Of a DNA stretch of 64,000 nt, positions 2,025 to 32,678 are shown in pieces. The position numbers were made by a program, and so were the translations under genes. The DNA comes from Enterococcus pallens ATCC BAA-351 (lineage in GTDB: Bacteria > Bacillota > Bacilli > Lactobacillales > Enterococcaceae): contig NZ_ASWD01000001.1 of assembly GCF_000407485.1 (NCBI RefSeq), forward strand, positions 930,001 to 994,000, read 5' to 3'. Every line of letters starts with the position of its first letter. The first letter of the stretch is position 1. The notes beneath the pieces are model-generated. The model worked only from the letters and a program-made list of their open reading frames with translations, made no database searches and was not told the origin of the DNA.

Positions 2025-2025
2025 G

Positions 2026-3162: not shown

Positions 3163-3169
3163 GAAAATT

Positions 3170-10074: not shown

Positions 10075-10171
10075 TGGCGGGAATGTGTGGGAATCGAACC
10101 CACCCAAGAAGCTACTAACTCCTCATACTGGTTTTGAAGACCAGAGGGCACACCAGAACCCATCCACTCCC
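10075..10171 (-). tRNA. selC: tRNA-Sec (anticodon TCA)
   Basis: Read on the minus strand this is a 97-base tRNA with encoded CCA. It has an 8-bp acceptor stem (GGGAGTGG with ACATTCCC), a long 6-bp D stem with a short TGGT loop, an anticodon arm CTGGT-CTTCAAA-ACCAG with anticodon TCA, a long variable arm (AGGAG with CTTCT) and a T arm GTGGG-TTCGATT-CCCAC. The 8+5 acceptor/T geometry, 4-base D loop and TCA anticodon are diagnostic of bacterial tRNA-Sec. Two imperfections are visible: the eighth acceptor pair is G-A and one D-stem pair is U-U. It sits 5.5 kb from selA and is transcribed in the opposite direction. Confidence 0.93.
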
Positions 10172-10211: not shown

Positions 10212-10795
10212 CTGTTTTTATAACGAAAATACTAAGCAGATAGAAAGCTTGCGCTTGATTCGGTCACGTGCACTTTTTTACTGAAAAATGAACGATAGCC
10301 TTCTCAAAAAAGAGAAGGCTATCTAACTAATCAATATTCATATTCTAAAGTTGAGGGTGTAGACTATTACTAAAAATTAACTATTTCTCGTTTAAACGAT
10401 GTATTCCCAAATCCTTCTAATACATCCTTGTAACCCTATAGTTACGCCAGATTGATTAAATTTCATCAAAATGAGTTAAAGTGTCGCATAAAAATATCTT
10501 TCGTATTGGATTAGTATAGCATAATTTGGCTGTAAAAAGATAATAGGCGGATTCACTATTTAATATTTTTTTAAATAGAGAAATCGATTGCAGGTATTTC
10601 AGGTACTCACACTATTTTTAAGATTTTTCTTGAGAAATTTTTTCTTCGACAATTCAAGTAAGTTTAAAAATACAATGACATATTTTTTACTATCGACAAT
10701 ATTCATGAAAAGTCTAATTCATTGATTTAAATAAACTAATAGAAAAAACAGGAAGCCAACAAGCTACTTCCTGTCTAAGGGTTGATCAACTTTAG
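10184..10795. other. Long non-coding stretch right of tRNA-Sec
   Basis: About 600 AT-rich bases without a supported gene. It contains the tRNA-Sec promoter at its left end, a near-perfect 12-bp inverted repeat at 10294-10323 (GATAGCCTTCTC, six-A loop, complement) without a proper T tract, and the terminator of the next minus-strand gene at 10747-10775. I see nothing else in it. Confidence 0.5.
10747..10775 (-). terminator. Terminator of the DUF4352-like gene
   Basis: On the minus strand ACAGGAAG pairs with CTTCCTGT and a T run follows, 20 bases beyond the stop codon of the gene ending at 10796. Confidence 0.8.
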
Positions 10796-11392
10796 CTATA
10801 CAGTTACTTTGAATTTAGCTGCTTTTTCAAAAGAGATTAGTGGACTAAAATGGACCTCAATTTCTCCTGGTTGATTGAGAGTGAAATGCGCGGTACAGTC
10901 CATTTCTTTTCCGGGTGCTACAGATCCCATAGTGTTCTCGTTAGGGTAAGTCTCAGCTTTTTTATTGTCAGAACCGTAAACTTCTACATCTACGCCCACT
11001 GGAAGATCGGTATCTCCATTGTTTTTAACAGTATAAGTGATCATTACTACTTGTGCTGGCTCGGTATCAGCGAACTGATTTCTCTCATCAGTCAATGTAG
11101 CACTATGAAGAGTATATTCAGCATCACCAACCTTCACCGTTTCACCTAAATTATAGAATTGTGTATCGGCAGATTCGTTGCTTTTTGATGTGCTGGTACT
11201 ACTAGATACTTTTGTTCCACCGTTGTTATTGTTAGAAGTGTTCTGGTCTTCAGATTCCCCACCTAGACCCCCAATTACTATAATGACAACAATGATTGCT
11301 AAAATCCAAAACCAGACTCGTTTGTAAAACGGTTTTTTTTCTTTAACTACATAAGTTTTCCCATCTTCTCCCGTTACTCTCTTTTTTGCCAT
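10796..11392 (-). CDS. Membrane-anchored protein with DUF4352/DUF5067-like C-terminal domain
   Basis: A 198-residue protein. Residues 1-24 are basic and cytoplasmic, residues about 25-45 form one membrane helix (WFWILAIIVVIIVIGG), residues 50-80 are a Ser/Asn/Thr-rich linker, and residues 85-198 form a beta-rich extracellular domain with the pattern VKVGDAEYTL...VMITYTVKNNGD...PG. That pattern is typical of DUF4352-type immunoprotective-like folds found in Firmicute surface lipoproteins. Function is unknown. It is monocistronic, with its own terminator. The start ATG at 11392 has AAGGAG upstream. Confidence 0.8.
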   Translation of the reverse strand: MAKKRVTGEDGKTYVVKEKKPFYKRVWFWILAIIVVIIVIGGLGGESEDQNTSNNNNGGTKVSSSTSTSKSNESADTQFYNLGETVKVGDAEYTLHSATLTDERNQFADTEPAQVVMITYTVKNNGDTDLPVGVDVEVYGSDNKKAETYPNENTMGSVAPGKEMDCTAHFTLNQPGEIEVHFSPLISFEKAAKFKVTV

Positions 11393-11420
11393 TTGTAACT
11401 CCTTCTTTCTTTGTTATAAT
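11393..11420 (+). promoter_or_regulatory. Possible plus-strand promoter facing away from the DUF4352-like gene
   Basis: TTGTAA at 11393-11398 and TATAAT at 11415-11420 are 16 bases apart on the plus strand. A start near 11427 would give a transcript of only about 50 bases, ending at the hairpin at 11449-11475. This could make a very small RNA, or may be chance in AT-rich DNA. Confidence 0.3.
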
Positions 11421-11448
11421 ATATTTAAGCAATCTCAAAAATGAGGTT

Positions 11449-11475
11449 AGTCCACGTTGCCGCGTGGACTTTTTT
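11449..11475 (+). terminator. Orphan plus-strand terminator
   Basis: AGTCCACG-TTGC-CGTGGACT followed by six T. No plus-strand gene precedes it; the nearest possible promoter is at 11393-11420. It may end a small RNA or protect the region from antisense transcription. Confidence 0.6.
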
Positions 11476-11807
11476 CTTTTTTAATAAGTTTATTATTGAA
11501 CCAAAGTAGTATAGATTTAATACTTGAATAATAGCTGTATCTACTAGAAACAAATATAATACTTATTATTCATTATATCATAGGTGATGCAAAAAAGTCT
11601 GTGTTTATTGATAGTGATGTTTTTTTATGACTGATTGTAGATTTGTTTTCATAAGTTTACATCACGTCTCATTATTGAGATAAGCTCGCGAAAAACTATA
11701 ATATCTAGCTTTCTTTTGATTTCGTTAAAAGAGAGCCATTACGATCAGAATTTAACGCAAAAGATGCTATACATTAAAAACGAATAAATTTAGAAAAAAG
11801 CACAACA
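11476..11807. other. AT-rich intergenic region
   Basis: About 330 very AT-rich bases. Several weak TATAAT-like words are present, but I see no ORF with a ribosome-binding site, no RNA gene and no clear repeat. Confidence 0.4.
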
Positions 11808-11843
11808 AAAGGCATCTACCATAGGCTTATAGTAGATGCCTTT
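11808..11843 (-). terminator. Terminator of the 49-residue ORF
   Basis: AAAGGCATCTAC pairs perfectly with GTAGATGCCTTT. On the minus strand it is followed by TTTTGTTG, 39 bases past the stop of the small gene at 11882. Confidence 0.75.
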
Positions 11844-11881
11844 ACAGAGAACTGGAACCGTTCATTTGAGAATTGCACTCC

Positions 11882-12031
11882 TTATGCGATTTTTTTCAAT
11901 TCTTGTACTGCTTGTTCGATGGTAACGCCGGTAGCAAATTGATTGGCATCCTCTTGGTTAAAGACGATGAAAAGATTCAATTCAGTATCCAAAGTTACTC
12001 GATAAGTTAATTCTTTGTTATAGAATGTCAT
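11882..12031 (-). CDS. Small 49-residue protein, unknown function
   Basis: A short ORF on the minus strand starting MTFYNKELTYRVTLDTE and ending QELKKIA. It has a convincing ribosome-binding site (AAAGGAG, 7-8 bases before the ATG at 12031) and its own terminator at 11808-11843. The composition is that of a soluble folded protein: beta-like N-terminal half and a helical C-terminal end. I do not recognise the family. The codon use, good RBS and terminator make it more likely real than chance. Confidence 0.65.
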   Translation of the reverse strand: MTFYNKELTYRVTLDTELNLFIVFNQEDANQFATGVTIEQAVQELKKIA

Positions 12032-12434
12032 ATTCATTCTCCTTTCTCTAAACTAACGAAAGGCAACTATTACGCTGATAACGAAATTCCATCTACTATT
12101 ATAGCATAATTTAATGGTCTTGGCCAATTTGTTGTCCTTTCAATTAAAGGGGATAGACTAGCTGAAGCTCTCCACCTCTATGTTATAGTATAAACTGTTT
12201 ATTTGTAGCTTAAATGAATAGTTTGTAAAGAGTGTGTAAACTGTTTAGAAAAAGCAGTTGTTTTTTTACGAAAAGCATGCTGCTGAGAGACGTTGGGATT
12301 CTTCGATTCAGGCGTACACAGCGAAAGCAGAAAGAGCGTCAAGCAAATCAATTGCTGCTTTATGCTAATGCAGCTTCTGGATGGCAAGCTTGGGCTTACG
12401 ATTGGGATGTTATCAAGTAATTTTAAAGTGAAAA
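12032..12434. other. Intergenic region without a supported gene
   Basis: About 400 bases. Short overlapping ORFs exist on both strands around 12200-12500, but none has a ribosome-binding site or recognisable product. It may hold gene remnants. The right end contains the terminator at 12435-12472. Confidence 0.4.
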
Positions 12435-12474: not shown

Positions 12475-12855
12475 CTATTTTAAAACCGCTGCTGCTAATG
12501 CTTGCTGAACCTTCACAATATTTTTATCTTTCCTAAATTGTAATGACTCTGCAGGCTCTAGAGCGCTTGAAACCCAAATTTTTAGTTCCGCATCTAAATC
12601 AAAATGACCAGAAGTTTCTACACTAAAGCGTGAAATACTTTTATATGGATAACTCTTATATTCAACTTTTTTACCGGTCATTCCTTGTTTATCAACAATA
12701 ATCAATCGATAATCAGTGAAAACGATCAAGTCTCTTACTAGGACAAAAGCTAAATCAACGGTTTCGCCAGGAACCAAAACATCCTCCAAATCTTTGTCAG
12801 CTTTTGCTTGCTTAACTTCAGAAGCATTGCCCATTAGGCCATCAAATAATCCCAT
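12475..12855 (-). CDS. PH-domain (bPH_1-like) protein
   Basis: A 126-residue soluble protein. The sequence has the pattern of bacterial pleckstrin-homology proteins such as the YvbH/DUF1696 group: an N-terminal helix (MGLFDGLMGNASE), a strand block ending FTDYRLIIVDKQGMTGKKVEYKS, then PYKSISRFSVETSGHFDLDAELKIWV and a C-terminal helix. The function of these proteins is unknown; they form oligomeric rings in some structures. It lies 42 bases downstream of the ImmA-like gene in the same direction but probably belongs to the host rather than the tail cluster. Confidence 0.75.
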   Translation of the reverse strand: MGLFDGLMGNASEVKQAKADKDLEDVLVPGETVDLAFVLVRDLIVFTDYRLIIVDKQGMTGKKVEYKSYPYKSISRFSVETSGHFDLDAELKIWVSSALEPAESLQFRKDKNIVKVQQALAAAVLK

Positions 12856-12897: not shown

Positions 12898-13581
12898 CTA
12901 AATACACAAAGCCTCATAAAAAGGATTTGTATAAATGATCTTTTTTTCGAGATTTGTTCCTAAATCTTTCATCAATGTCTCACCAGAGTAACCAAACTGA
13001 TTTAAAATTTTGAAGCTGGTTTTGCTGGCTGCTTCATACGAGGCACTGAACTCAGCTTGCATTGTTTGGATCAGTCGAAGCTTTAAAGCTGTTTCAGAAA
13101 TACCAAATTCTTTTGAAATATCCGCTGGTTTTTTCCCTTGCTTCAACACGTGAATAAATACAGGATCAGGTAAAAGAATCGCGGCAGCTCCAATGTTGGC
13201 CTGAAACTCGACCAGTGATTTGTGATCGTAGGTATTCAAAGTCTGTTTTGTGTCATAGTAATAAGGCATTTCTTTGTTCAAGTGATATAAATAGTGAATC
13301 AACTCATGTGAAATTGTAAAATTGATTCGATTTTGGTTCATATACTTATTATAGGTAATGGTCGTTTCACGGTCATCCTTAACAATCATCCCAGAGACAG
13401 CCTGCCGCGCTTTTCCTTCAAAATAAAACCCACGAATTTTTACATTATCTTCCATGATACATTGCCAAATTACTTCATGATTGTAGTTTTCAACATTCAT
13501 TTCTAAACCTAGCATCGTGGCTGAAAGGTATTCGTTGATTTTTGTAGAAAACTGGATATATTCCTCTAACTCGCCTGACAT
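12898..13581 (-). CDS. ImmA/IrrE-family metallopeptidase
   Basis: A 227-residue protein with the zinc-peptidase motif HELIH at residues 92-96, followed by a second-shell region with FQANIGAAAILLP, which is the classic ImmA/IrrE pattern. Proteases of this family cleave a Xre-type repressor to induce a mobile element (ImmA-ImmR of ICEBs1, phi105). The repressor gene lies 4 bases upstream in the same direction, so the pair is almost certainly such a switch. Its likely target is the adjacent repressor, so it would relieve repression of the tail cluster. The start at 13581 has AAGGATTG upstream. Confidence 0.9.
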   Translation of the reverse strand: MSGELEEYIQFSTKINEYLSATMLGLEMNVENYNHEVIWQCIMEDNVKIRGFYFEGKARQAVSGMIVKDDRETTITYNKYMNQNRINFTISHELIHYLYHLNKEMPYYYDTKQTLNTYDHKSLVEFQANIGAAAILLPDPVFIHVLKQGKKPADISKEFGISETALKLRLIQTMQAEFSASYEAASKTSFKILNQFGYSGETLMKDLGTNLEKKIIYTNPFYEALCI

Positions 13582-13585
13582 ACAA

Positions 13586-13951
13586 TCAATCCTTTTCTGT
13601 ACGTTCTCGTTTGATTTCTTGCAGACGCCAATTCAAAAAGCGTTCAACTTCTTTTTCAATATCTTCTGCATCCTCTTCTGAAAGATCGGAGGTATCTGAA
13701 CGAAGCATGATTTGCCTGGCAATTGAATGATTGTCAGAAGGATCAGCAATAGCAGTATTAGATGCCCGATCCAGTAGATAGTCGAGAGAAACATCAAAAT
13801 AATCAGCAACTTTTTCAATTTTATCGATGCCAGGTTTATTTTTCCGCCATCGGTTGATTACTCCATTGCCAAAATTTAACTGTTCTTCTAATTGACGAAT
13901 CGATATATTTTGCTCATTCGCCAATTTTTTTATTTTTTCATATAGATTCAT
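13586..13951 (-). CDS. Xre/Cro-CI family repressor of the tail cluster
   Basis: A 121-residue repressor with an N-terminal helix-turn-helix (IRQLEEQLNFGNGVINRWRK, about residues 18-37) and an acidic helical C-terminus. The start is placed at ATG 13951 (MNLYEKIKKLA) because the longer frame has a membrane-like, implausible extension and no ribosome-binding site. It is transcribed away from the regulators and tail genes and is coupled to the ImmA-like protease. By analogy with ICEBs1 ImmR it should hold the divergent promoter at 14001-14029 off, probably through the ATAGACAAA/TTTGTCTAT half-sites nearby. Confidence 0.88.
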   Translation of the reverse strand: MNLYEKIKKLANEQNISIRQLEEQLNFGNGVINRWRKNKPGIDKIEKVADYFDVSLDYLLDRASNTAIADPSDNHSIARQIMLRSDTSDLSEEDAEDIEKEVERFLNWRLQEIKRERTEKD

Positions 13952-13979
13952 ACAGTAACCTTTCTTTCTACAAAAAAAC

Positions 13980-14099
13980 ATAGACAAAAAATCGACATAG
14001 TTGCATAATATAGAAAATATGTATACAATACTTATACAAGAAACAGAAAAAAGGGTCAAATTCCTCGCTTCTCCTTTTTATTGTAGAATATTTGTCTAT
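13980..14099. promoter_or_regulatory. Divergent control region with ATAGACAAA inverted half-sites
   Basis: ATAGACAAA at 13980-13988 and its exact complement TTTGTCTAT at 14091-14099 flank the divergent promoter. These 9-base words are plausible operator half-sites of the Xre repressor. Binding has not been shown. Confidence 0.45.
14001..14029 (+). promoter_or_regulatory. Rightward promoter of the first tail-cluster regulator
   Basis: TTGCAT at 14001-14006 and TACAAT at 14024-14029 are separated by exactly 17 bases. It faces the regulator starting at 14145 and lies between the two putative repressor half-sites. Confidence 0.65.
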
Positions 14100-14144
14100 A
14101 TTAGTAAAGGAAAAATGGAGGATTGCTTGTTAGGAGGTATGTAC

Positions 14145-14507
14145 ATGGAAAAATGGAAAAAGAATTATTTGAAGGGACTTCTTTCCGAATATCCTCATTT
14201 GGAGAGGTATATTAAAGAAAAGGAAAGAGAATTGTCTTGTCATCGACGAAATAATGAGGGACCTTTACTCATAACGATTTCTTCAGATAGGCGACTAAGA
14301 AGCCTAGAAAGAAAGCACCGAATTATTCGGGAAGCTCTTTTGGAATCTTCTCCAGAGGTTCGGGAGATTATTGAAGAACTATACATGAAGCCTTGTAAAA
14401 ATAGTAGTTTAACCAAGGTGGCAGATCAAGTTTACTTAAGTACAAGACAGGTAACCCGTTTACGAAATCATTTTTTTGAAAATTTATTAGAGAAATTAGA
14501 GCTCTAA
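14145..14507 (+). CDS. ArpU/RinA-like late regulator (first of three)
   Basis: A 120-residue basic protein with an N-terminal helical part and a C-terminal helix-turn-helix (LTKVADQVYLSTRQVTRLRN, about residues 88-107). The layout matches small sigma-like activators of phage late genes (ArpU, RinA, DUF1492-type). The ATG at 14145 is 7 bases from TAGGAGGT; a longer in-frame start at 14001 has no ribosome-binding site and would lie in the promoter. Two more proteins of the same general type lie at 14578 and 24268. Its likely role is to turn on the tail operon. Confidence 0.7.
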   Translation: MEKWKKNYLKGLLSEYPHLERYIKEKERELSCHRRNNEGPLLITISSDRRLRSLERKHRIIREALLESSPEVREIIEELYMKPCKNSSLTKVADQVYLSTRQVTRLRNHFFENLLEKLEL

Positions 14508-14512
14508 TTTTT

Positions 14513-14542
14513 TTGCTCCGAAAAGAACATACGTTCGATAAA
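14513..14542 (+). promoter_or_regulatory. LexA-box promoter of the second tail-cluster regulator
   Basis: TTGCTC (14513-14518), an 18-base spacer and GATAAA (14537-14542) form a weak promoter. The spacer holds GAACATACGTTC at 14525-14536, a match to the Gram-positive LexA/DinR box (CGAACATATGTTCG type). LexA bound there would block RNA polymerase, so DNA damage should induce the regulator at 14578. Confidence 0.75.
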
Positions 14543-14577
14543 ATTGATTGATAATAAAAAAACGAGGAGGAGTTAGC

Positions 14578-15003
14578 ATGGCAGAATTAAGCAAAGCAAA
14601 ATTAGCAAATTTAGAGGAGGATCTTCGTTCGTATAAACAACTGCCAAGAAAAATGGCGGAAGCCTTAATAGCAGATGAATGGCAGCCCAAGGATGTAAAG
14701 GCATGGATGAAAAATCCAATGGATCAACAAGAAAAAGTAATGAATGAAAAAACGCAGAAAGAGAAGAACAAAAGCTATATGTACTACGCAACGTTATACG
14801 AAGACATTACAAAGGTATATAACCAGCTGAGCGAAGAGTTGAAGGAACTGGTGGATGTTTATTTGTGGGGAGAATACAGTTACCTAAGTTGGCCTGAAAT
14901 AGCTAAGGCAACCTATTTCTCTACTGCTGGGATTTACAAGAAACGTTATCGAATTTTAGAGAAATTAGCAATTGAACGGGGGATTTTGGTAAGAGTAGAA
15001 TAA
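14578..15003 (+). CDS. ArpU/RinA-like regulator under LexA control (second of three)
   Basis: A 141-residue charged helical protein from the ATG at 14578 (GAGGAGGAG 6-8 bases upstream; an upstream TTG at 14548 is rejected). The C-terminal part contains a sigma-region-4-like helix-turn-helix (WPEIAKATYFSTAGIYKKRY, about residues 104-123) as in phage ArpU/RinA activators. Its promoter carries a LexA box in the spacer, so it is the best candidate for the SOS input of the cluster. The 200-base region after it has repeats that could be its targets. Confidence 0.75.
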   Translation: MAELSKAKLANLEEDLRSYKQLPRKMAEALIADEWQPKDVKAWMKNPMDQQEKVMNEKTQKEKNKSYMYYATLYEDITKVYNQLSEELKELVDVYLWGEYSYLSWPEIAKATYFSTAGIYKKRYRILEKLAIERGILVRVE

Positions 15004-15017
15004 CACATCTATCTTTC

Positions 15018-15109
15018 TACCAATTACATACGTTAAATTGGTAATGTCAAATAGAGCAACAATTCTAAACAACAGAATGGTCCGTTTCCGGAGGTTGTGG
15101 ACGTTAAAT
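15018..15109 (+). promoter_or_regulatory. Candidate late-operon control region with repeats
   Basis: The gap 15004-15206 separates the regulators from the structural genes. It contains a perfect inverted repeat TACCAATT/AATTGGTA at 15018-15043 and a direct repeat ACGTTAAAT at 15030-15038 and 15101-15109. I see no good vegetative promoter here, which fits an activator-dependent late promoter. Confidence 0.5.
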
Positions 15110-15206
15110 AAAACACGTGAGGGTCTCCCAGTGACCAAAAATGTGCGTATCTGAAAATAATTAGTTACAAGTGAACCGCTGCAGAGGGAGTAGGAGGACT
15201 AATCAT

Positions 15207-15596
15207 TTGGAATCAGAAAAAATTATTGAAAAGCTGCAAAAACGAGTGGGCAAAGAACAAGCAAGAAAAAATGCATTTCGCCAACGTTTAGCAGAAACAC
15301 AGCTTTATATTCAACAACTTGAGAACCAACAAAAAGAGCTGACTCAAGAAAAGCAAAAACAGGAAGAGCAGCTTTCAAGGTTGGAGTTGCACTATCGCCA
15401 ACAACTTTTTATGAGGCAATCAGAAAGAATTTGGCAAGAATTTCAACACAGTTTTACAGAACCACTGCTATTAACAGACCAATCTCATGAGCTTGCATTG
15501 GAAGCTTTAACTATCCTGATCGATGACTTAAAAAATCAGATCAGTCTGTTAATCAGCAACAAATTACCTTTAGAAAAAAAGAAAATGGAGGAATGA
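15207..15596 (+). CDS. Coiled-coil protein at the head of the tail operon
   Basis: About 129 residues from a TTG start at 15207 (AGGAGG at 15192-15197, 9 bases before). Residues 1-80 are almost pure heptad-type helix, rich in Glu, Gln, Lys and Arg (ENQQKELTQEKQKQEEQ), followed by a helical C-terminal half. No family is recognised. It is separated by 3 bases from the major tail protein and so belongs to the structural operon. It could be a tail assembly, scaffold or cap protein replacing the head-joining proteins of a complete phage; this is inference. Confidence 0.6.
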   Translation: MESEKIIEKLQKRVGKEQARKNAFRQRLAETQLYIQQLENQQKELTQEKQKQEEQLSRLELHYRQQLFMRQSERIWQEFQHSFTEPLLLTDQSHELALEALTILIDDLKNQISLLISNKLPLEKKKMEE

Positions 15597-15599
15597 AAT

Positions 15600-16112
15600 A
15601 TGGCAGCATTAGACGGAATTGATGTATTGTGGCGCTATCGTTTTACAGAAGAAGAAGGAAATGAAGCAGCCTGGGGATTAGCTTATACAACAGAAAGCGG
15701 CTATTCAAAATCAAAAAGCAGTGAAACAACAATTACGAAAGACGGTACAGTTGTTACACCAGGAGCAGTCGAAACAACTGCTTCAGCAACTACTTTATAC
15801 AAAGTAGGAGATACCCGCATCGATGAATTGGAAGAAAAAGGAATTGATGCCGGCAAACGGATGCAATTATGGCGGATCAGCACTAAAGAGGCTGGCACCG
15901 GGGAAAATGCATCTAAGTATAAAGCAAAGTATTTTGAAGGGTATCTGACAACCTTTGAACCAACAGACAACGCTGAAGACAAAGTAGAGTATTCACTGGA
16001 ATGGTCCATTGAATCAACTGGGAAAAATGGCTATGCAACCTTAGTAATTGACGACAGTGATGGTGGCGATTACGCATTCAAGGATACAGTAAAAGTTGAA
16101 GCAGCACCATAA
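15600..16112 (+). CDS. Major tail tube protein, TP901-1/phi13 type
   Basis: A 170-residue protein starting MAALDGIDVLWRYR with the pattern DVLWRYRFTEEEG...SYSKS...DGTVVTPGAVETTAS...LW.I, which is typical of siphophage major tail proteins of the TP901-1 family. It should form the hexameric rings of the tail tube. It is followed by chaperones and tape measure in the canonical order. It has an ideal GGAGGA site and intact frame. Confidence 0.85.
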   Translation: MAALDGIDVLWRYRFTEEEGNEAAWGLAYTTESGYSKSKSSETTITKDGTVVTPGAVETTASATTLYKVGDTRIDELEEKGIDAGKRMQLWRISTKEAGTGENASKYKAKYFEGYLTTFEPTDNAEDKVEYSLEWSIESTGKNGYATLVIDDSDGGDYAFKDTVKVEAAP

Positions 16113-16136
16113 TCTAACACTTAGGAGGATCTTTTT

Positions 16137-16484
16137 GTGGATATTACGGTAAATGAAAAAACCTATCATTTTAAATTTGGGTACGGTTTTTTAGCAAGAA
16201 TTAACGAGAAATACTCGTTAGATAAAAACGGTATTGAGCTGAGACTAGGGATTGGAACCATCATTACTAATCTTATGTTGGGTGATATGCAAACTGCCTT
16301 TGAAGCACTTCTTATGGCGAATGAGACAGAAAAGCCTAAAATCACGCTGGATTTATTGGATCAGTACTTAAATGAAGTTGGTGCTGAAAAACTTATTAAT
16401 GATGTGATCGAAGAGTTAAAAAAGTCGGAGTATACAAAACGCCTAGTCAATCAAACACTGCAGGAAGCGCAAGGAGCGCTGTAA
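16137..16484 (+). CDS. Tail assembly chaperone gpG-like
   Basis: A 115-residue protein with a GTG start at 16137 after AGGAGG. The sequence (YHFKFGYGFLARINEKY...GIGTIITNLMLGDMQTAFEALL) is typical of Gram-positive siphophage tail assembly chaperones placed between tail tube and tape measure genes. It binds the tape measure and recruits tube subunits. A perfect A AAA AAG slippery heptamer at 16418-16424, in the zero frame, allows -1 shifting into the downstream frame to make the longer gpGT-type product. Confidence 0.85.
   Translation: MDITVNEKTYHFKFGYGFLARINEKYSLDKNGIELRLGIGTIITNLMLGDMQTAFEALLMANETEKPKITLDLLDQYLNEVGAEKLINDVIEELKKSEYTKRLVNQTLQEAQGAL
16418..16424 (+). promoter_or_regulatory. 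Programmed -1 frameshift site (A AAA AAG)
   Basis: In the gpG-like frame the codons read TTA AAA AAG, so the heptamer AAAAAAG has X XXY YYZ phasing. After a -1 slip the frame stays open from here through the second chaperone ORF to 16837. This is the arrangement of gpG/gpGT genes in siphophages. Confidence 0.85.
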
Positions 16485-16837
16485 AACCAAGATCATTTCG
16501 CGATTACTATGAAGAAGTTCAAATCAACGCTTTGCGTTGTCTGAACTTCTTCCATTTTAAAGATATTGAGCGAATGACGATTGCGGAATATGAACTAAGG
16601 ATGAAGGCCTTTCGTCTGCAGCAGGTGGATGAACAATATATGATTCATTCACAGGCTTGGGCTAATGCCATGGCCCAAGCAACGAAAAAAGGGAAACCTA
16701 TTTATACGCGTTTTGATAAGTTTTTTGATTATAAGAAGGCAATTAAACGAGCAACTGAAGAGGTGTCGGTAAAAGAAGCTGATAAGGATCAGCTGCAGGA
16801 CTTTATTGCAAATTATAATGCGAAAGGAGGGAAATAG
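16425..16837 (+). CDS. Tail chaperone T-domain, made as gpGT fusion by -1 frameshift
   Basis: This frame is -1 relative to the gpG gene and is open from the slippery site to 16837. Its first ATG (16574) and alternative start (16532) lack a ribosome-binding site, so it is best read as the C-terminal extension of gpG. The sequence contains FRDYYEEVQINALRC and FFHFKDIERMTIAEYELRM, typical of this second chaperone domain. The fusion protein would be about 233 residues. It ends directly before the tape measure gene. Confidence 0.82.
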
Positions 16838-18802
16838 ATGGATGACATGTATAATTTTGAAATTACACTTTCTAACATGAATAGTTTATTTCAACGAACA
16901 GAAGCAGCGAAAGAAGAAAGCGAGCCAGTGCGAGGGATTTTACGAATGGCTTCGAATTTAGCTGATGCAGCAACTGGAAAAATCTCAGGGCGCTCTAGTG
17001 CTTCGGTAAACGAATTAGAAAATTCTGGTAAAGCCATAAACAGTCTAGGGAAATCGGGTAATTCAAGTGTTGATGAGTTATCAAAGGCTTGGCAAAAGAT
17101 TTTAAACGGTGTCAATCAAGTTAATCGCGCGTTTGAAACCCTAGGTGAAAATAGCGGTATTTCCAAATTTTTAGAATTAATGGGTAATGTAAAAGCCATT
17201 GTTACGCCAGTAGAAAAAGCCTTAAGTAAATTTAACGGCGTAGTTGATTCGTCAGTAGGAAAAATAACTGGCTTACTAGGAAGTAAAAAAGACGATAATG
17301 CTAAGTCGGATGGTAAGGATAATTCAGGCTGTAACTGTTCTTCTTCAAGCGGCGGAGAGAAAAAAAGTGGTGGAGCAAATCCAGCAGTGCAGTTGAAGGA
17401 TGAGGTTGAAAAATCGAAAGGTGCATTTGAAACAGTTCAAGGTATTGTAAACGGCATGCTAGGTGGCTTAACCAATGTATTTGGTCTAGCACTAAAAGTA
17501 TTAGGCCCAGGAGCAATTTTAGGTGTCGTTTTAGCTGGTTTAGGTTTAGCCAATCAGCAATTTGGAGAGCAGATCTCCAGTATGATTACGATGATTGCTA
17601 CGAAGGGACCAGAGATCATTAATAGCTTAGTGACGAACATAACGACAGCTTTACCAGCCTTGATCGCTTCGGGGGCGCAAATTCTAACGTCGCTAATGGA
17701 AGCCATTACTGCCAACATCGAACCTATATTTAATGGTGCGGTGGCAATTATTAGTTCGCTAATCGAAGGAGTGATTGCGGCTTTACCGCAATTAATTCCA
17801 GCTGCCTTGCAGATGATTGAAACTTTGGCAATCAGTTTGATCAGCGCAGCACCTCAATTAATGATTCAGGGCTTGAATCTGCTACTGGCGATTGTACAAG
17901 GGATTAGTGAAAATACCGGGAGGATTGTCGAAACGATCGCTAATGTTCTAACCGCTTTTCTTGGTGCTATTACGGAATACTTACCGACCATTTTTTCTAA
18001 AGGGATTGAAATTTTAGTCACATTAATTACCGCGATTGCTAAAACAATTGTCGAACTGATCCCCGTAGCGGCAAGTATTATTTACCAATTTTTGAGTACC
18101 ATTGGAGAGAAGCTGCCGGATGTTGTCAGCAAGGGGATCGAAATAGTTGGTTCCTTGATTCAAGGATTAATCGAAAAACTGCCTCAGGTTATCGAATCAG
18201 GTGTTCAATTGATCCAAGCCCTTATCCAATCGATTGCCGAAAAAATTCCAGCAGTAAAGGAAAAGGCGATGGAAATTACCGCTAATTTACTTTCTAAAAT
18301 TTTGGAAGCTGGCTCAGATATGGTCGGGGCCGGCAAAGATTTAGTGCGTGGATTTATTGAAGGCATTGGCTCAATGATCGACAGTGTTGTTCGAAAAGCA
18401 GGTGAATTAGCTTCTTCGGCTGTGAATAAAGTCAAAGAATTTCTAAGAATAAAATCCCCGTCTCGAGTATTTAAAAGGATTGGTGAATATACTGGTCAGG
18501 GGTTTGTATTGGGAATGGACAGTATGATTTCTAACGTTGAGAAAACTTCTGAGCAGTTAGCCCAGGCAGCGATTCCCGATATGCAATCGATGGACTATGC
18601 CATGAATCAAAGTATGGGAAGTATTGGTGCTAGTTTTTCAGCGGAATCAATGAATCAACCAATTATTATCGGCAATGATCAACCAATTTATGTCACGTTG
18701 CCAGATGGAAGGATTATTGCTGAAACAACCGCACCCTTTATGCCTAAGCTGCTTCAAAAACACCAGGATCGCAGGAACAGTCAATTAGGAAGGAGAGGAT
18801 AA
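16838..18802 (+). CDS. Tail tape measure protein
   Basis: A 654-residue protein with long amphipathic helical and hydrophobic stretches (about residues 200-500) typical of tape measures, and the C-terminal motif KVKEFLRIKSPSRVFKRIGE...GQGFVLGM found in siphophage tape measure proteins. A Cys pair (CNC) and a Ser/Gly-rich linker lie near residue 170. At roughly 1.5 angstrom per residue it predicts a tail near 100 nm, short for a Gram-positive siphophage. ATG at 16838 after AAAGGAGGG. The intact frame and correct position support a working tail. Confidence 0.88.
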   Translation: MDDMYNFEITLSNMNSLFQRTEAAKEESEPVRGILRMASNLADAATGKISGRSSASVNELENSGKAINSLGKSGNSSVDELSKAWQKILNGVNQVNRAFETLGENSGISKFLELMGNVKAIVTPVEKALSKFNGVVDSSVGKITGLLGSKKDDNAKSDGKDNSGCNCSSSSGGEKKSGGANPAVQLKDEVEKSKGAFETVQGIVNGMLGGLTNVFGLALKVLGPGAILGVVLAGLGLANQQFGEQISSMITMIATKGPEIINSLVTNITTALPALIASGAQILTSLMEAITANIEPIFNGAVAIISSLIEGVIAALPQLIPAALQMIETLAISLISAAPQLMIQGLNLLLAIVQGISENTGRIVETIANVLTAFLGAITEYLPTIFSKGIEILVTLITAIAKTIVELIPVAASIIYQFLSTIGEKLPDVVSKGIEIVGSLIQGLIEKLPQVIESGVQLIQALIQSIAEKIPAVKEKAMEITANLLSKILEAGSDMVGAGKDLVRGFIEGIGSMIDSVVRKAGELASSAVNKVKEFLRIKSPSRVFKRIGEYTGQGFVLGMDSMISNVEKTSEQLAQAAIPDMQSMDYAMNQSMGSIGASFSAESMNQPIIIGNDQPIYVTLPDGRIIAETTAPFMPKLLQKHQDRRNSQLGRRG

Positions 18803-18805
18803 CCT

Positions 18806-19738
18806 TTGAGCTTATATGAATTTATTGATACAACAGCAACGCAAAAGGAACGCCCTCTTCCTTCTGAGGCGTTGAATTTTAATGGGAACTTTCTCGAAAA
18901 ACTGATTCCCGGATATCGAACATTAAATGTAACCGGACGTGAATTGGCAGCGACAGAAGTTGAAAGCTATCAATTAGGAATTCGTGACGGAAAACGACAT
19001 GTGTATGCCAGAATTCCGGATCGTGTACTGACAATCAAGTATCAGCTGACGGCGTCAAACAATGAATCTTTTCGGGATAAATTCAATCGGCTGAATGTAG
19101 CTTTGTTTTCGGAGAAAGATGTAGACATTTGGTTCAATGATGAGCCAGAGATGCGTTGGTCAGGCAGTAAATTGGACGTCGGTGAGGTGCCCGAAGGAGG
19201 AAATCAAGTAATTGGCACTTTTACTATTTTACTAAGTGATCCTTATAAATATACTCGTTCAGATGCTACAAGTGTAATGTGGGGTTCTCAGACTATTACT
19301 TTCCAAGCCAATTATTTAATGGGAAATACTGGCTCTGGAGCTGTAAATATGCCGATTAAGATCGAAGGTGGAGCTTATTGGGGATCCACTATGATCACTT
19401 TTCAAAATCGGGCCTATACAATGGGAGATGAAGGCAAAGAAATTAAACCAATTGAAATTTATCCAACCGTTGAGGGATTGAAGGTAAAACCTACCATTAC
19501 TTTATCAGGAACTGGGCGAGGCGTTTGGATTAAGACTAGGAATGACACTGTTGATTTAGGTGACTTTGACCGTTCAGATGTTGTCATTGATACCAAATTT
19601 TTTAATATTACTAGAAATGGACAACCAATGATTCGACCAATGAATGATTTTTATATTTATCCTAACGAACCATTGTACATCCAAGCAAAGGATAGTGATT
19701 TCCGCCTAACTATACGCTATCCAAATCGATTCTTATAG
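18806..19738 (+). CDS. Distal tail protein Dit
   Basis: A 310-residue protein starting at TTG 18806. The sequence (LTIKYQLTASNNESFRDKFNRLNVALF...RWSGSKLDVGEVPEGGNQVIGTFTILLSDPYKY) follows the siphophage distal tail family, where Dit hexamers cap the tube and carry the baseplate or fibres. Its position between tape measure and Tal is canonical. It is co-translated with its neighbours (3-base gap to the tape measure gene). Confidence 0.85.
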   Translation: MSLYEFIDTTATQKERPLPSEALNFNGNFLEKLIPGYRTLNVTGRELAATEVESYQLGIRDGKRHVYARIPDRVLTIKYQLTASNNESFRDKFNRLNVALFSEKDVDIWFNDEPEMRWSGSKLDVGEVPEGGNQVIGTFTILLSDPYKYTRSDATSVMWGSQTITFQANYLMGNTGSGAVNMPIKIEGGAYWGSTMITFQNRAYTMGDEGKEIKPIEIYPTVEGLKVKPTITLSGTGRGVWIKTRNDTVDLGDFDRSDVVIDTKFFNITRNGQPMIRPMNDFYIYPNEPLYIQAKDSDFRLTIRYPNRFL

Positions 19739-19750
19739 GAGGCTGAGCAT

Positions 19751-21784
19751 ATGCTTATGGCAATGAATCTCAAGCGAGAGTATACAGCGATCCTTGAGAA
19801 TGCATTTAATGTTAGTTATGAAAAAATTGAAAATCAGATTGGAAGCATTGAGTTTTCCATGCCGCTGGACGAACCTAAAAATAAGTTTTTACAAGAAATG
19901 TTGTGGGTAGAGCTAGTGGATAATGAGAATGAATATATTGGGTTGTATCGGATCATGCCTTCAACGATTCGAAAAGATGCCTCGCAAAATACGATTACCT
20001 ATACAGCTACTCATGCATTGTGCACATTACTAGATACGGTCCTCTTTGGTTATCACGAGTGTATCAACAGAAAAACAGAGGATGCGATCAAGTTCATTTT
20101 AGCTAAACAAAAGACAAAACATTGGGTATTGAAAAAGTGCGAGTTTACGAAGTACTTTTCCTACTCTTGGGAAAATGAGAATGGGTTAGCAGATGCGCTG
20201 TTTTCAATTCCAGAGGTCTTTGATGAAGAGTATTTGTGGGAGTGGAATACACAAACATATCCGTTTGAACTCTCTTTGGTTAAGCCTAAGACATCCGCTG
20301 TGGCTCGGATTCAAGAAGGCTATAATATGCAAGGCTTTGAAATTGAAAGAGATCCCAATAATTTAGTCAATCGCATTTATCCTCTGGGTTCGGGTGAAGG
20401 CGTCAACCAATTAAATATTTCTTCTGTCAACAATGGAATTTATTACATTGAAAACAAAGAAAGTATCGAGAAGCATGGATTAATTGAATATGTTTGGACA
20501 GATACTCGTTTTACCCAGGCTCAGTCGTTAAAAGACAGTGCCGAAAGCCTATTAAAAAAATGGCTGGAACCTAAAATTTCATGGACTATTCGAGCGACTG
20601 ACCTGATGAAGTTAACCGATCAGCCGTTAGCAATTGATCAATTAAGATTGGGCAATATCGTAATGATTAATACCAATGATTTTGGCAGTGTTGATTTGCG
20701 AATCAAAAAAGAAAGAAAAAATGATGTATTTGGCGCTCCACAGGATATTGAATTAGAGCTTGGCAATCTAAGCGGAGACATCACAACCACCGTTTCTGAT
20801 TTGAGTCGAAAGCAGCAGATCAATGAAACCTACTCCCAAGGGGCAACAAATATATTGAGCTACTCTTATCAAGATAATTGTGAATACAACTTTCCAGCGA
20901 AAATTGATTTTTATTTAGATGAGGATGTATTTCATATCAATACGGTGGAATTAACCTATAAAACCAAAAAATATCGTGGGTATACGAAAGCTGTTCGTGA
21001 TGGAGGAGCGAAATCTATCAACAGTGAAGATGGCGGTGCAAAAACGATTAGCAGTAAAAACAATCGAGCAATAACGGTAGCTGCTTCCAACGGTGGTGGA
21101 GGAAATTCGACAACCAGTTCTGATGGGGATATCCATATAAACGAAATGACTGGTCAAAGTGGTGGAGGAACGACAAATACTAGTCCTGCCGGTGATCATA
21201 ATCATTTGGTACTTCGAGGTGGTAGTACTGTTAATCATAAGTGGAAGGATGACGAGACAGCGAATGTTTATGATGCGTCCAACGGCAATAGTCTTTTTGT
21301 TGGTGGAAGCGGCTCAGTTAAAGACATTTATACTGCAAGCTCTTCTGGAAATCATTCACACAGTGTGGATTTACCAAGTCACTCTCATAATTTCAGGTTT
21401 GATAAAGCCGGGCATACCCACAGCGTTACGATTCCCGCCCACGCTCATAATGTGACGATTCCGGCACATAATCATCAAGTGGATTTACCGGCGCATAAAC
21501 ATAAGATAAATCTGCCAAATCACACACATCCATTACAGCTAGGAATTTATGAAGCCAATGAAAACGCCAGTAAGGTAGATATTTATGTGGATGGAAAACT
21601 ACTAAAAGATAGCCATAAATTAGATGAAAATCGATTGGATATTGTAGGAAGTTTAAAAAAAAGCAATGGGAAAATTCTACGGGGCAATCATACAATCGAG
21701 ATTAGACCCAATAAATTAGCGAGAATAGAAGCGCAAATTACTTGTCGGGTATTTATTCAAAGTCAAATCGGCGGACAGTTTTAG
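19751..21784 (+). CDS. Tail-associated protein Tal with His-rich HxH repeats
   Basis: A 677-residue protein. Residues 1-330 match the prophage endopeptidase/tail-tip fold (MNLKREYTAILENAFNV...IGLYRIMPSTIRKD), the Tal or gp27-like hub. Residues about 400-500 are Gly/Ser/Asn-rich. Residues about 535-595 carry seven HxH motifs spaced mostly eight residues apart (for example PAHAHNV, PAHNHQV, PAHKHKI). Similar HxH needles bind iron in tail fibres and spikes. The C-terminus is beta-rich. It probably forms the tail tip that contacts the cell. SD AGGAGG lies 9 bases before the ATG. Confidence 0.82.
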   Translation: MLMAMNLKREYTAILENAFNVSYEKIENQIGSIEFSMPLDEPKNKFLQEMLWVELVDNENEYIGLYRIMPSTIRKDASQNTITYTATHALCTLLDTVLFGYHECINRKTEDAIKFILAKQKTKHWVLKKCEFTKYFSYSWENENGLADALFSIPEVFDEEYLWEWNTQTYPFELSLVKPKTSAVARIQEGYNMQGFEIERDPNNLVNRIYPLGSGEGVNQLNISSVNNGIYYIENKESIEKHGLIEYVWTDTRFTQAQSLKDSAESLLKKWLEPKISWTIRATDLMKLTDQPLAIDQLRLGNIVMINTNDFGSVDLRIKKERKNDVFGAPQDIELELGNLSGDITTTVSDLSRKQQINETYSQGATNILSYSYQDNCEYNFPAKIDFYLDEDVFHINTVELTYKTKKYRGYTKAVRDGGAKSINSEDGGAKTISSKNNRAITVAASNGGGGNSTTSSDGDIHINEMTGQSGGGTTNTSPAGDHNHLVLRGGSTVNHKWKDDETANVYDASNGNSLFVGGSGSVKDIYTASSSGNHSHSVDLPSHSHNFRFDKAGHTHSVTIPAHAHNVTIPAHNHQVDLPAHKHKINLPNHTHPLQLGIYEANENASKVDIYVDGKLLKDSHKLDENRLDIVGSLKKSNGKILRGNHTIEIRPNKLARIEAQITCRVFIQSQIGGQF

Positions 21785-21843
21785 TGACGTTACAAATTGA
21801 ATTGAGCTGCTAAAGTGAAGCAGCTTAAAGGAGGAAAAAACAT

Positions 21844-23679
21844 ATGGCAATTGAACATATTAAAGAGACCGATACCCTTAATCAAGGGCGGCAAAAGATT
21901 AACGAAATCATGGACCAATCCAATCAGTCAGCTCAAAAGGTTGACGACTATTCAAGAACCTTAGAACAAGGAATCAGAGATGCCAAACAAATTGCGGCCG
22001 ATGCCGGCGATGATGCCAAACAAATCGCTCAAAATGCCGGAGCAGAGGCAAATGTAAAGGCAGATCAAGCAGTCGCTGATTCAAAAACAGCGGTAGAAAC
22101 AGCCAATCGTGCGGTAGGAACAGCCAATCAAAATAAACAAGAATTTGACACGCTAAGAAATGAGTTTGATGAGCTTGTTGCCGAATCTGGCGACAGCAAT
22201 CCGGAAATTGTCCAAGCTCGTACCGATACAGAAGGAATTAAACAGCCAACCTTACAAGCAAGATTAACCAGAGATTTCGGCAACCGTCTGACTACCGCGG
22301 ATGCGATCAAAATGTTTTCATGTTCAGTAAACACCCCTAAGATGATGGATTTTTCAAGTAAAACAGCTGGGAATCTAGCAACTAATCCTCATCAAGGCTA
22401 TTCAGATTATACGGCAACCACGTTGAAAAAGCCTGCTGCAGCTTGGAACGAAGTAAATCAGGATGCTTACAATAAGCTGGTAGCTCGAGATGACTCTGGC
22501 GTTTCAACAGGCTCAACGCAAAATGGCGTAATTCCGCAGCAACTATTTAAATTTGATGTAATAAAAGCCATTGAACAGATTGCACCAACAGTATTTAGTG
22601 GAAAAAGTTTAGAGGAAAGTATTCAGTTGATAAAAAACAACTTTGTTTCATTTACGCTAGCACTGCGGGGAAAAGCAACTTCACCTAACAATAAAAATCT
22701 GAAGGCCGCAACTTATTTGGAATCGACGGATAGCTACTCTACTCAGCTGCAAAGTTCAGCGCAAGAGTACACTGACTTTACAACAGAAATTAATGATCGC
22801 AATTTTATTGATTCTAAAGGAAAAATCAATGTACTTGTTTATTCGGATAGTTCTAATGGTGTAACTTCTTCAAACATCGATATTGATTATGTTGGGGTTC
22901 AGATTGTCGTCTCCTTGAATCCATTAGATGTTTTAGAATCAAGCGGTTTTGCCAAGTCAGAGAATGTCACTAATCAATTGAAGCAGCATACCGATGATAA
23001 AAACAACCCTCACAGTGTTACAAAAAGCCAGGTCGGACTAGGCAGTGTACCCAATTATGGGGCTGCAACAGATGCCGAAGCTTTATTGGGAACAGTTAAT
23101 AATAAAATGATGACTCCGAAGAATGTGAAGGATGTATTGGATGCAAAGACGGTATTGATTGAGGGAGATCAAGAAATATCTGGTTTAAAAAACTTTCTTA
23201 CCACTCCCAAAGTAAATGACAATTTGATTTTAACGGAGAATAATTGTCTCGTAACAGTGTTACAAGGTATTAGAATGAAAGGAACTGTAGAGTCTGGAAC
23301 GAAAATCAAGTTTAACAATAAAGTTTTGAGTGCGAATTCAATAAAGAGTGAGCCTATATTTTCTATTCAAAACGAAACTGACATTATTTGTCATAATCCG
23401 GGTATCTATTTACTCCAATTGTCGGCGTTTATTCAAATGGACTTGGCTAGTAACAATTATTTTTATTTGGATTTGGCCATAAATGGGGGATCTCCTAAAG
23501 ATACTGATGAACGTTTGGCAGGGATTGGTGGGCAACATACACTTCGTAATGAAATATCAGGATCGACTATTGTAAAGATTAACTCAAATGATGTAATTAC
23601 AATAAAAACAAATACTAATCTAAAAGGGAGCGCTACAAGTTTTGGTGCGATGACGTTTAGAATACAGGAAGTTTCTTGA
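21844..23679 (+). CDS. Tail fibre / receptor-binding protein
   Basis: A 611-residue protein. The N-terminal 140 residues are helical and coiled-coil-like with Ala repeats (SKTAVETANRAVGTANQNKQ). The middle contains the fibre motif DDKNNPHSVTKSQVGLGSVPN (about residues 381-400), common in phage and tailocin fibres. The last 130 residues look like a C1q/jelly-roll head (CLVTVLQGIRMKG...GIYLLQLSAF...FGAMTFRIQEVS) that would bind the cell surface. It would set the host range of the particle. SD AAGGAGG precedes ATG 21844. Confidence 0.82.
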   Translation: MAIEHIKETDTLNQGRQKINEIMDQSNQSAQKVDDYSRTLEQGIRDAKQIAADAGDDAKQIAQNAGAEANVKADQAVADSKTAVETANRAVGTANQNKQEFDTLRNEFDELVAESGDSNPEIVQARTDTEGIKQPTLQARLTRDFGNRLTTADAIKMFSCSVNTPKMMDFSSKTAGNLATNPHQGYSDYTATTLKKPAAAWNEVNQDAYNKLVARDDSGVSTGSTQNGVIPQQLFKFDVIKAIEQIAPTVFSGKSLEESIQLIKNNFVSFTLALRGKATSPNNKNLKAATYLESTDSYSTQLQSSAQEYTDFTTEINDRNFIDSKGKINVLVYSDSSNGVTSSNIDIDYVGVQIVVSLNPLDVLESSGFAKSENVTNQLKQHTDDKNNPHSVTKSQVGLGSVPNYGAATDAEALLGTVNNKMMTPKNVKDVLDAKTVLIEGDQEISGLKNFLTTPKVNDNLILTENNCLVTVLQGIRMKGTVESGTKIKFNNKVLSANSIKSEPIFSIQNETDIICHNPGIYLLQLSAFIQMDLASNNYFYLDLAINGGSPKDTDERLAGIGGQHTLRNEISGSTIVKINSNDVITIKTNTNLKGSATSFGAMTFRIQEVS

Positions 23680-23750
23680 CTTTACGAAGAATGCTTTTAT
23701 ATTGAAAAGATTAGTCAACATTTATACTATCATTAAATCGAGGTGAACAC

Positions 23751-24155
23751 ATGGAAAAATATTTAAACGAACTGTCTATCATTATCGGTTTGATTGGTGG
23801 ATTCTTCGTGAATTATCTTGGGGGGATGGATGCTATTTTACATGCACTAATCTTTTTAGTGGTGCTTGATTATATCACTGGATTGATTAAGGCTTGGAAA
23901 TTGAAAACAATCAACAGTGAGGTTGGTTTTACAGGTTTAATAAAAAAAGTACTGCTATTTGCAGTTGTGGCTGTTTCTGTTGAGGTGGAGAAAATTTTAG
24001 GGAACACAATCCCGTTACGGGAAATTGTTATTATGTTCTATTTAGCAAACGAAGGGATTTCGTTTCTTGAGAACATTTCTGAATTTATTCCTCTGCCAGA
24101 AAAGCTGCGGGAAGTTTTTCAACAAATCAGAGACAAGGAAGAAAAAAGCAGTTGA
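23751..24155 (+). CDS. Phage holin (holin_4/toxin-secretion type)
   Basis: A 134-residue membrane protein with three hydrophobic segments (about residues 8-45, 62-80 and 85-105) and the pattern LDYITGLIKAWKLKTINSEVGFTGLIKKVL, typical of the Cph1/phi29-type holin_4 family. It would release the particles. No endolysin gene follows, which is unusual for this position. Confidence 0.85.
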   Translation: MEKYLNELSIIIGLIGGFFVNYLGGMDAILHALIFLVVLDYITGLIKAWKLKTINSEVGFTGLIKKVLLFAVVAVSVEVEKILGNTIPLREIVIMFYLANEGISFLENISEFIPLPEKLREVFQQIRDKEEKSS

Positions 24156-24267
24156 ATAAGGTATGAAAAAAACAAACTATTTTGAAGATAGGATTGCTCG
24201 AAAACTAGCTTGAAAAGCTTACAATAATTAGGGTTTCACTAGCCTAGTATTTTAGTAGGAGGATTCG

Positions 24268-24651
24268 ATGGATAAAGCAACTAGAACTCATATACGGAAT
24301 ATTTTGTGGAGTGTCAAGAAAATCAAGAAAGTACTGAATAATATTTCAAATGTTGTTATAGATCAAAAAAATGTTTTTTTGGAGTATCCTGTTTCGAATG
24401 ATTCAGATACGCAATGGAGTGTGAATCAATTGGTTTTTCACAAAATGTTTTTGACTATAGTTGAAGAAACGTTAGCAAATTCACCTGAGCAAGTAACGGA
24501 TATTTTTACTTCAAAATATTTAAATGGCTATCCGAACAAAGAAAATGCTCTAGTAGCCAGCGAAGTCCACCTTAGTGAATCTACAATCAAACGGTACGAC
24601 AAAGAATTTTTGCAAGAAATTGCTATTCGATTAGGCTGGCTATCGGTTTAA
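24268..24651 (+). CDS. ArpU/RinA-like regulator (third of three)
   Basis: A 127-residue protein with an N-terminal helical region and a C-terminal helix-turn-helix (NALVASEVHLSESTIKRYDK, about residues 92-111). It resembles the late regulators at 14145 and 14578 in size and layout. It is the last gene of the tail cluster, after the holin, and has AGGAGG before ATG 24268. It may have its own weak promoter in the 110-base gap. Role inferred only. Confidence 0.6.
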   Translation: MDKATRTHIRNILWSVKKIKKVLNNISNVVIDQKNVFLEYPVSNDSDTQWSVNQLVFHKMFLTIVEETLANSPEQVTDIFTSKYLNGYPNKENALVASEVHLSESTIKRYDKEFLQEIAIRLGWLSV

Positions 24652-32631: not shown

Positions 32632-32649
32632 TATCATCACCTCAACACT

Positions 32650-32678
32650 ATTATACGAACATGCGTTCGGAAAGTAAA
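32650..32678 (-). promoter_or_regulatory. LexA-box promoter of a two-gene SOS operon
   Basis: On the minus strand a TATAAT -10 (32650-32655) is preceded by a 17-base spacer containing CGAACGCATGTTCG (32656-32669), a perfect palindromic LexA/DinR box. A weak TTTACT -35 lies at 32673-32678. Confidence 0.85.

Follow-up and report, generated by a model that had tools for sequence, protein, structure and literature searches.

A candidate F-type, monocin-like tailocin in an SOS-controlled lysis island of Enterococcus pallens

To our knowledge, few tailocins of Gram-positive bacteria have been described, and the site analysed here bears on how they arise. F-pyocins and rhizoviticin are headless, non-contractile tails that serve as bacteriocins, in Gram-negative hosts and with other regulators. 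The Listeria monocin locus carries tail genes without a capsid, lysis genes and no excision genes, is SOS-induced, and is old and mostly vertically inherited (PMC6872733).

The nearest known element is pp2 of E. faecalis V583 (PHAGE02, EF1276-EF1293). This element was present in eight of eight tested isolates, was called core and had structural genes that were not decayed (PMC1899230); it was without integrase, was never seen to excise and was termed a remnant (PMC3675006); and zero pp2 genes were differentially transcribed with chloramphenicol (PMC2902013). Tail-only clusters of Enterococcus are already in print, as a remark, and neither an enterococcal tailocin nor this SOS lysis cassette was named in any title or abstract start among the matches listed for the open-licence literature. 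What is new here is the history of the site and its conserved SOS lysis unit.

Gene content of the locus

The window is the whole 64-kb stretch of E. pallens ATCC BAA-351 DNA that was analysed, and coordinates refer to it. The genome (G000, 5.44 Mb) belongs to a genus-level group, g1, which includes E. avium ATCC 14025 (G003). The region at 12.5-24.65 kb combines an Xre/ImmA switch with three ArpU-like regulators, the genes of a siphophage tail and a holin, and every gene named by the first-pass annotation had an open frame by ORF reading and family scans.

On the minus strand lie the genes for a bPH-domain protein (12475..12855; PF08000, phrog_7115), which lies some 1.3 kb away from Arp1 in G000, G006, G012 and G007, for an ImmA-like metalloprotease, the presumed anti-repressor (12898..13581; PF06114), and for an Xre/CI-like repressor (13586..13951; family scan). 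The plus strand carries the ArpU-like regulator Arp1 (14145..14507), followed after 17 nt by the start of the LexA box AGAACATACGTTCG (14524..14537), and the ArpU-like Arp2 (14578..15003), the first gene downstream of the box and the presumed late activator. The third ArpU-like gene, Arp3 (24268..24651, plus strand), is positioned after the holin. The phrog_36 E-values of the three ArpU-type proteins were 1.9e-12, 5.1e-8 and 3e-10. Prophage L039 has a 47% relative of Arp3 downstream of its fibre and lysis genes, and in phiEf11 a regulator gene follows the endolysin.

The stretch at 15101..15250 (plus strand) is a candidate late promoter or operator, being 95% conserved between G000 and G006 (Enterococcus sp. 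665A) against 83-88% in adjacent windows. It overlaps the start of a coiled-coil gene (coil, 15171..15596, plus strand; weak phrog_2932 match; start codon uncertain), whose product weakly resembles a short ORF preceding the tube gene in E. moraviensis-group clusters. Promoter and terminator scans of 13.4-15.7 kb gave counts near those of shuffled sequence; the scans of 23.6-25.1 kb counted 8 promoter-like matches (5.5 in shuffles) and 3 terminator-like ones (0.8 in shuffles), and neither result was relied on.

The tail genes, all on the plus strand, begin with the tail tube protein (15600..16112; PF06199; phrog_238, 1.2e-38) and the tail assembly chaperone gpG (16137..16484; PF12363, 3e-20). 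The slip site A AAA AAG (16418..16424) is the sole in-phase X XXY YYZ heptamer in the overlap of gpG with the -1 frame of gpT; the -1 frame past it has 137 codons and leads by frameshift into the gpT part of gpGT (16424..16837; phrog_441, 7e-27). The heptamer stands 66 nt from the gpG stop in G000 and likewise in G006, and was also found in L059 and in three inspected E. moraviensis-group copies. GGGAAAG occupies the slip position in the pp2-like locus L038 and in phiEf11, and L054 had no slip heptamer by the same X XXY YYZ test. There follow the 654-aa tape measure (16838..18802; phrog_5493, 4e-71), the distal tail protein Dit (18806..19738; phrog_5163, 8e-186; 79% to phiEf11), the tail-associated protein Tal with His-rich repeats (19751..21784; PF06605, 7e-51), the tail fibre (21844..23679; phrog_5793, 8e-188) and the holin (23751..24155; PF05105; Holin_4_1, 3e-33). 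At 0.15 nm per residue, the 654-aa tape measure predicts a tail of about 98 nm. The fibre tip, modelled from one sequence with a pLDDT of 44, matched C1q/TNF-like proteins and the phage 1358 RBP, which is a hint at most.

Family scans of the cluster detected neither sheath or wedge genes, as expected of a non-contractile tail, nor replication genes. In genome-wide searches of G000, integrase (PF00589) gave 62 matches and terminase one (PF03354) or two (phrog_2), with none in the window; the closest integrase match lies some 70 kb away from the cluster, and the terminase matches lie in two places on other contigs. No portal or capsid gene was found by family scans of the cluster, by ORF reading or among the 25 listed of 87 Pfam families of the flanks (53 ORFs of at least 75 aa). 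The family scans found no endolysin in the cluster of G000 or in the G006 locus, and no tail-terminator hit in the cluster, while the pp2-like L038 has one. A plasmid search with the cluster gave zero matches.

The locus therefore has the non-contractile tail genes, the fixed site and, on sequence evidence, the SOS or repressor/ImmA control of an F-type tailocin, and is without sheath, wedge, head, packaging, integrase and replication genes; of the holin and endolysin that an F-type tailocin or monocin would own, G000 and G006 have the holin only. The terminase, portal, capsid and integrase that define a temperate siphophage were not found, nor was the integrase plus replication module of a PICI-like phage satellite. 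It is very unlikely that the tail serves a mobile island or a headed phage resident in the genome: G000 does have further prophage-like regions and terminase matches in two places, but integrase and terminase matches are absent from the window, the site is fixed in 12 species, and no tail-terminator hit was obtained that could join a tail to a head. Zero integrase or terminase matches inside the window also led us to drop an excisable element, and the tRNA-Sec gene (10075-10171) was dropped as an attachment site by reading, as its 3' end faces away from the cluster. A relocated endolysin was considered as well: a lone 403-aa Amidase_5-type lysin is encoded on contig C3 of G000, and since it is absent from G006 (E 1e-30), relocation fails to account for both species.

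The first-pass annotation had read the cluster as an intact set of flexible, non-contractile tail genes from tube to fibre, with an Xre/ImmA pair, three ArpU-like proteins and no head, packaging or integration genes. All of this was borne out, although the cluster had been drawn just short of the ImmA gene. Head, terminase or integrase genes linked to the cluster had been named as counter-evidence; no terminase or integrase match lies in the window, and the scans and ORF reading described above found no head gene. With the endolysin missing from the G000 and 665A clusters, the set is not complete as a lytic tailocin, which lowers its claim to monocin membership, not to monocin-like working.

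Other features of the window and genome were recorded in passing. A gene group of selB, a cysteine-desulfurase-like gene and selA (123-4561), close to the tRNA-Sec gene, is by its sequence a selenocysteine system in an Enterococcus. An Rfam match to the BsrC sRNA (10386-10475, plus strand; 50.5 bits, cut-off 38) lies between tRNA-Sec and the ORF at 10796. The 62 tyrosine-recombinase matches of G000 are on contigs C1, C2, C3 and C6, and a trio of recombinase genes is repeated seven times at identical scores in this genome; it looks like a recombinase-in-trio element.

The same site in related enterococci

The LexA box at 14524 has 1 mismatch in 10 fixed positions, and about 1.1 sites as good are expected per 64 kb from base composition; a single box is therefore weak evidence, and its weight derives from conservation. 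The Arp1 subfamily has one copy each, at the same site, in 12 of 20 g1 genomes (E up to 4.7e-24; the other eight genomes include two that are merely 74 and 78% complete), and further Arp1 hits among 105 family genomes were at 2e-16 or weaker. Neighbouring genes are common to all 12 carriers. Each of the 12 cassettes has a LexA box, exact in 4 of them and with no more than 1 mismatch in the others, whose start lies 17-23 nt past the Arp1 stop, with a varying spacer. Of 24,000 mononucleotide-shuffled 100-nt stretches, 14 did as well as a real one; the 12 boxes come from related genomes and are thus not 12 independent events. On this evidence the SOS control proposed by the first-pass annotation looks conserved at the site.

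Exact LexA boxes were also observed in the far flanks of the relatives L078, L079, L080, L082, L088 and L093, as a rough internal check of the box, and at window position 32656-32669, before a small ORF (32359-32640, minus strand) that is YolD-like by reading.

What stands behind the box varies. G000 and G006 have the tail and Holin_4_1, with the lysin absent; the tube gene at E 1e-40 was found in 21 of 105 family genomes, and within g1 in these two only. The ten tail-less cassettes all carry holin(s), and six have an intact-looking endolysin. In G012, an Amidase_5 lysin is followed by a holin 71% identical to that of the window, and in G007 a Holin_4_1-like gene is followed by a lysin in broken pieces. 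A BhlA-type holin occurs with Amidase_5 and lysozyme-like lysins in G011, G016 and G010, with Amidase_5 in G013 and G004, alone in G008, and with a Hol118-type holin in G017 and G003. (Pfam scans cover all three genes of G011, the lysins of G012 and G004 and the second holin of G017; the rest were named by likeness of sequence.) The conserved unit at the site is thus the SOS box, the ArpU gene and the holin, and the tail is present in just two of the 12 cassettes. Where the tail operon is present, it lies in the interval from the LexA box to the holin, which in the sister species G012 is the location of the endolysin.

The left flank at 10796-12037 is variable: a 198-aa phrog_806 ORF has no match in G006 or G012, and these two genomes have ABC-transporter-like genes (by reading) between p50 and the bPH gene.

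The first-pass annotation had proposed to look for the same gene order at the same site in relatives, and had held that decay of the tail genes in most of them would speak against a tailocin. The neighbourhood, Arp1 and the LexA box are shared by all 12, the tail by two; in the ten others the tail is absent, with lysis genes instead, and is not visibly decaying, so that this objection applies in part.

Regulated cell lysis could itself be the conserved function, with the tail as an occasional passenger; the island would then release other bacteriocins, DNA or resident phages, or coordinate prophages through ImmA. The tail-less cassettes, with their LexA box, ArpU gene and holin(s) and, in six, an intact-looking lysin, fit this reading, as do the short monocin loci of Listeria, which have 3-6 genes and all keep mpaR, a gene that controls resident prophages (PMC6872733). 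Yet both tail carriers are without a lysin and have an intact tail, which suggests that there the tail, not lysis, is selected; G008, G017 and G003 are also without a lysin and that of G007 is broken, so that lysis itself may be breaking down in some of the group's members. We consider a lysis island with a passenger tail improbable.

Origin and history of the tail operon

The Arp1 tree pairs G000 with G006 (support 89/93) and places eight other genomes in one group (98/99); as the majority of its inner branches are unresolved, it does not decide between gain and loss of the tail. The two tail-bearing genomes, one per species, were compared gene by gene. Synonymous divergence (dS) of the regulators was 2.48 (ImmA), 0.80 (Xre), 1.40 (Arp1), 2.09 (Arp2) and 0.89 (Arp3), and that of flanking genes 1.11 (sulfatase), 1.30 (bPH), 1.48 (ABM), 1.46 (glyoxalase-like), 0.99 (lipoprotein) and 1.56 (merR), with 2.34, 1.35 and one saturated value for three further flank genes. 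The other genes of the cluster gave 0.49 (coil), 0.22 (tube), 0.24 (gpG), 0.18 (gpGT), 0.18 (tape measure), 0.30 (Dit), 0.12 (Tal), 0.18 (fibre residues 1-467) and 0.54 (holin). Among the flanks, p50, a small upstream gene, departs from this pattern (dS 0.19), so that a low dS is not peculiar to the tail. Per-gene DNA identity of the tail was 92.5-96.9%; in 150-base windows, identity was 91-100% over 15.7-23.05 kb, except for 85-91% at 18.85-19.3 kb, and 28-45% at the fibre tip (23.2-23.65 kb), which past residue ~467 was not alignable between G000 and 665A.

Because the dS of Arp1, Arp2 and Arp3 is near that of most flanks, the regulatory framework, Arp2 and Arp3 included, is read as already in place when the two species split. 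The tail dS of 0.12-0.30 points to exchange later than the split, and we read the structural block as replaced by recombination from a common source, with the tip swapped; two captures from a tail-only relative could be an alternative.

The same comparison bears on whether the locus is a prophage remnant that lost its head, replication and integration genes and whose drifting tail is kept because it is recent. The tail genes clearly derive from phiEf11/NF5-type phages, the endolysin is missing, ten of 12 same-site loci are without a tail (among them G007 with its broken lysin), and pp2 was itself termed a remnant (PMC3675006). On the other hand, the tail frames are all open in both species, dN/dS is 0.02-0.09 from tube to Tal (57 nonsynonymous and 214 synonymous changes) and 0.24 in fibre residues 1-467, the slip site is kept, the LexA box is conserved, and the regulators look older than the split. 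We judge a remnant unlikely and read the tail as a module that is maintained and has been exchanged, not as a decaying prophage. The block may come by exchange from an unseen phage, in which case the dN/dS signal could partly reflect selection in phages.

As judged by sequence, the tail is a hybrid of two sources. For the tube (68-71%, 17 genomes), gpG, gpGT and the tape measure, the closest relatives belong to a tail-only cluster found in the E. moraviensis group, and Dit, Tal and fibre are nearest to phiEf11-type phages and pp2. No near-identical phage tail was found in IMG/VR or INPHARED; the IMG/VR donor search used exact peptide patterns, which recover close relatives only. It returned the same-strain contig only for the tape measure and Arp1, that contig and six others at 26% identity for the tube, and 34 loci for Dit, of which the best full-length ones bar the same-strain contig were at 80%. 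IMG/VR contig L098 was excluded as an independent relative, as it is 100% identical to the window over 13,360 bases.

Tail-only homologues elsewhere in the family are L038 (pp2-like), L054 and L059. The E. moraviensis group (g13; 22 genomes in the searches) has a syntenic tail-only cluster in 17 genomes (L048-L053, L055, L061, L062, L065-L072), adjoining a phospho-beta-glucosidase-like gene (by reading) in all 17 and directly before rplU in four. ORF order revealed no head or lysis genes there, with family scans made on five L049 ORFs and two neighbours, and no LexA box was present within 1 kb upstream of the tube gene in any of the 17. The g13 tubes are 93-99% identical to that of L049, and the tape measures range from 666 to 923 aa. 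L054 (G069), L059 (G021) and L073 (G033) are tail-only clusters with Xre and ArpU genes directly upstream of the tube gene, and endolysins were present in the scanned L054 and L059. OR846658.1 (L035), deposited as 'Enterococcus phage Efs 1-1-1', is an unannotated 10.8-kb record with the end of a tape measure, Dit, Tal, fibre and holin; it may be a piece of the pp2 element rather than a phage.

Proposed working and comparison with known systems

We take the locus to be an F-type, monocin-like tailocin built into an SOS-controlled lysis island of part of the E. avium group, with a probability of about two in three (0.66); from this we infer a particle and killing by it. Going by family knowledge and the Listeria MpaR work, Xre would hold the divergent promoters and ImmA would relieve them under stress. 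DNA damage would free the box past Arp1 from LexA, leading to expression of Arp2 and then of the late operon. The tube would be assembled by gpG and gpGT, the latter made by -1 slippage, on the 654-residue tape measure, and the expected product is a flexible tail ~100 nm long that has no head and ends in Dit, Tal and the variable fibre. The holin would open the membrane. Since the locus is without its own lysin, wall lysis must have an outside source, presumably host autolysins or resident prophage lysins. Released tails would bind related cells via the fibre tip and kill by depolarisation, as monocins and F-pyocins do.

More tentatively, at somewhat less than even odds, we suggest that an old SOS lysis island, made up of Xre/ImmA, ArpU, the LexA box and a holin with or without an endolysin, has been retained at one site in the E. 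avium group, that the tail operon makes this suicide switch a lysin-less tailocin, and that the block recombines between species while the fibre tip is renewed. At one site, sister species carry only lysis genes, only holins, a holin next to a lysin in pieces, or a lysin-less tail set; with such varied cassettes behind one conserved SOS box, the order of domestication steps becomes testable.

The Listeria monocin likeness claimed by the first-pass annotation holds for layout (a CI-like repressor with a metalloprotease, regulators, a capsid-less tail, lysis and no excision genes) and not for sequence. PDB sequence searches with tube, Dit, Tal and fibre returned zero monocin chains (tube and Dit at E up to 1), and the monocin carries holin and endolysin where this locus has the holin only. 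By sequence, the locus falls outside the Listeria monocin family proper; remote homology may exist.

The nearest solved tail tube is that of Brochothrix phage NF5 (9m7c; 3.3e-40 by sequence). By fold, the modelled tube (pLDDT 65) matched NF5 at E 9e-11 and monocin tube chains at E 0.06 with 12% identity, and the NF5 Dit relative (9m8o; 3.5e-21) is only 32.5% identical over 60%. NF5 itself differs in being a phage record of 37 kb. The phages phiEf11, EFC-1 and IME197 share the Dit-Tal-fibre half (Dit 77.5-78.6% identical; DNA ~72% over one third of the tail block), but are full-length genomes of 40-43 kb with another tube and tape measure half, and the phiEf11 annotation has the terminase, portal, capsid, endolysin and integrase that the locus is without.

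Closest of all is pp2, for which locus L038 was taken from its content and site. Like the locus, it is a small tail-only element without head or integrase genes, and it has a repressor, metalloprotease, ArpU (36%), tube, gpG/gpGT and tape measure, with the same tail gene order and homologous Dit (79%), Tal (65% over 404 residues), fibre (48%) and holin (49%). Its chromosomal site and regulators are not the same: its neighbours are an RbfA-like gene on one side and a TruB-like gene on the other (both by reading), and no LexA box with at most 1 mismatch was present in the 20 kb of L038. Unlike the window locus, it has an endolysin, a tail terminator and DnaB_2/IstB-type genes; its tube is only 28% identical and its tape measure has 977 aa. 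The site analysed here also suggests that pp2, which has been termed a remnant, is one of a broader range of tail-only loci in enterococci.
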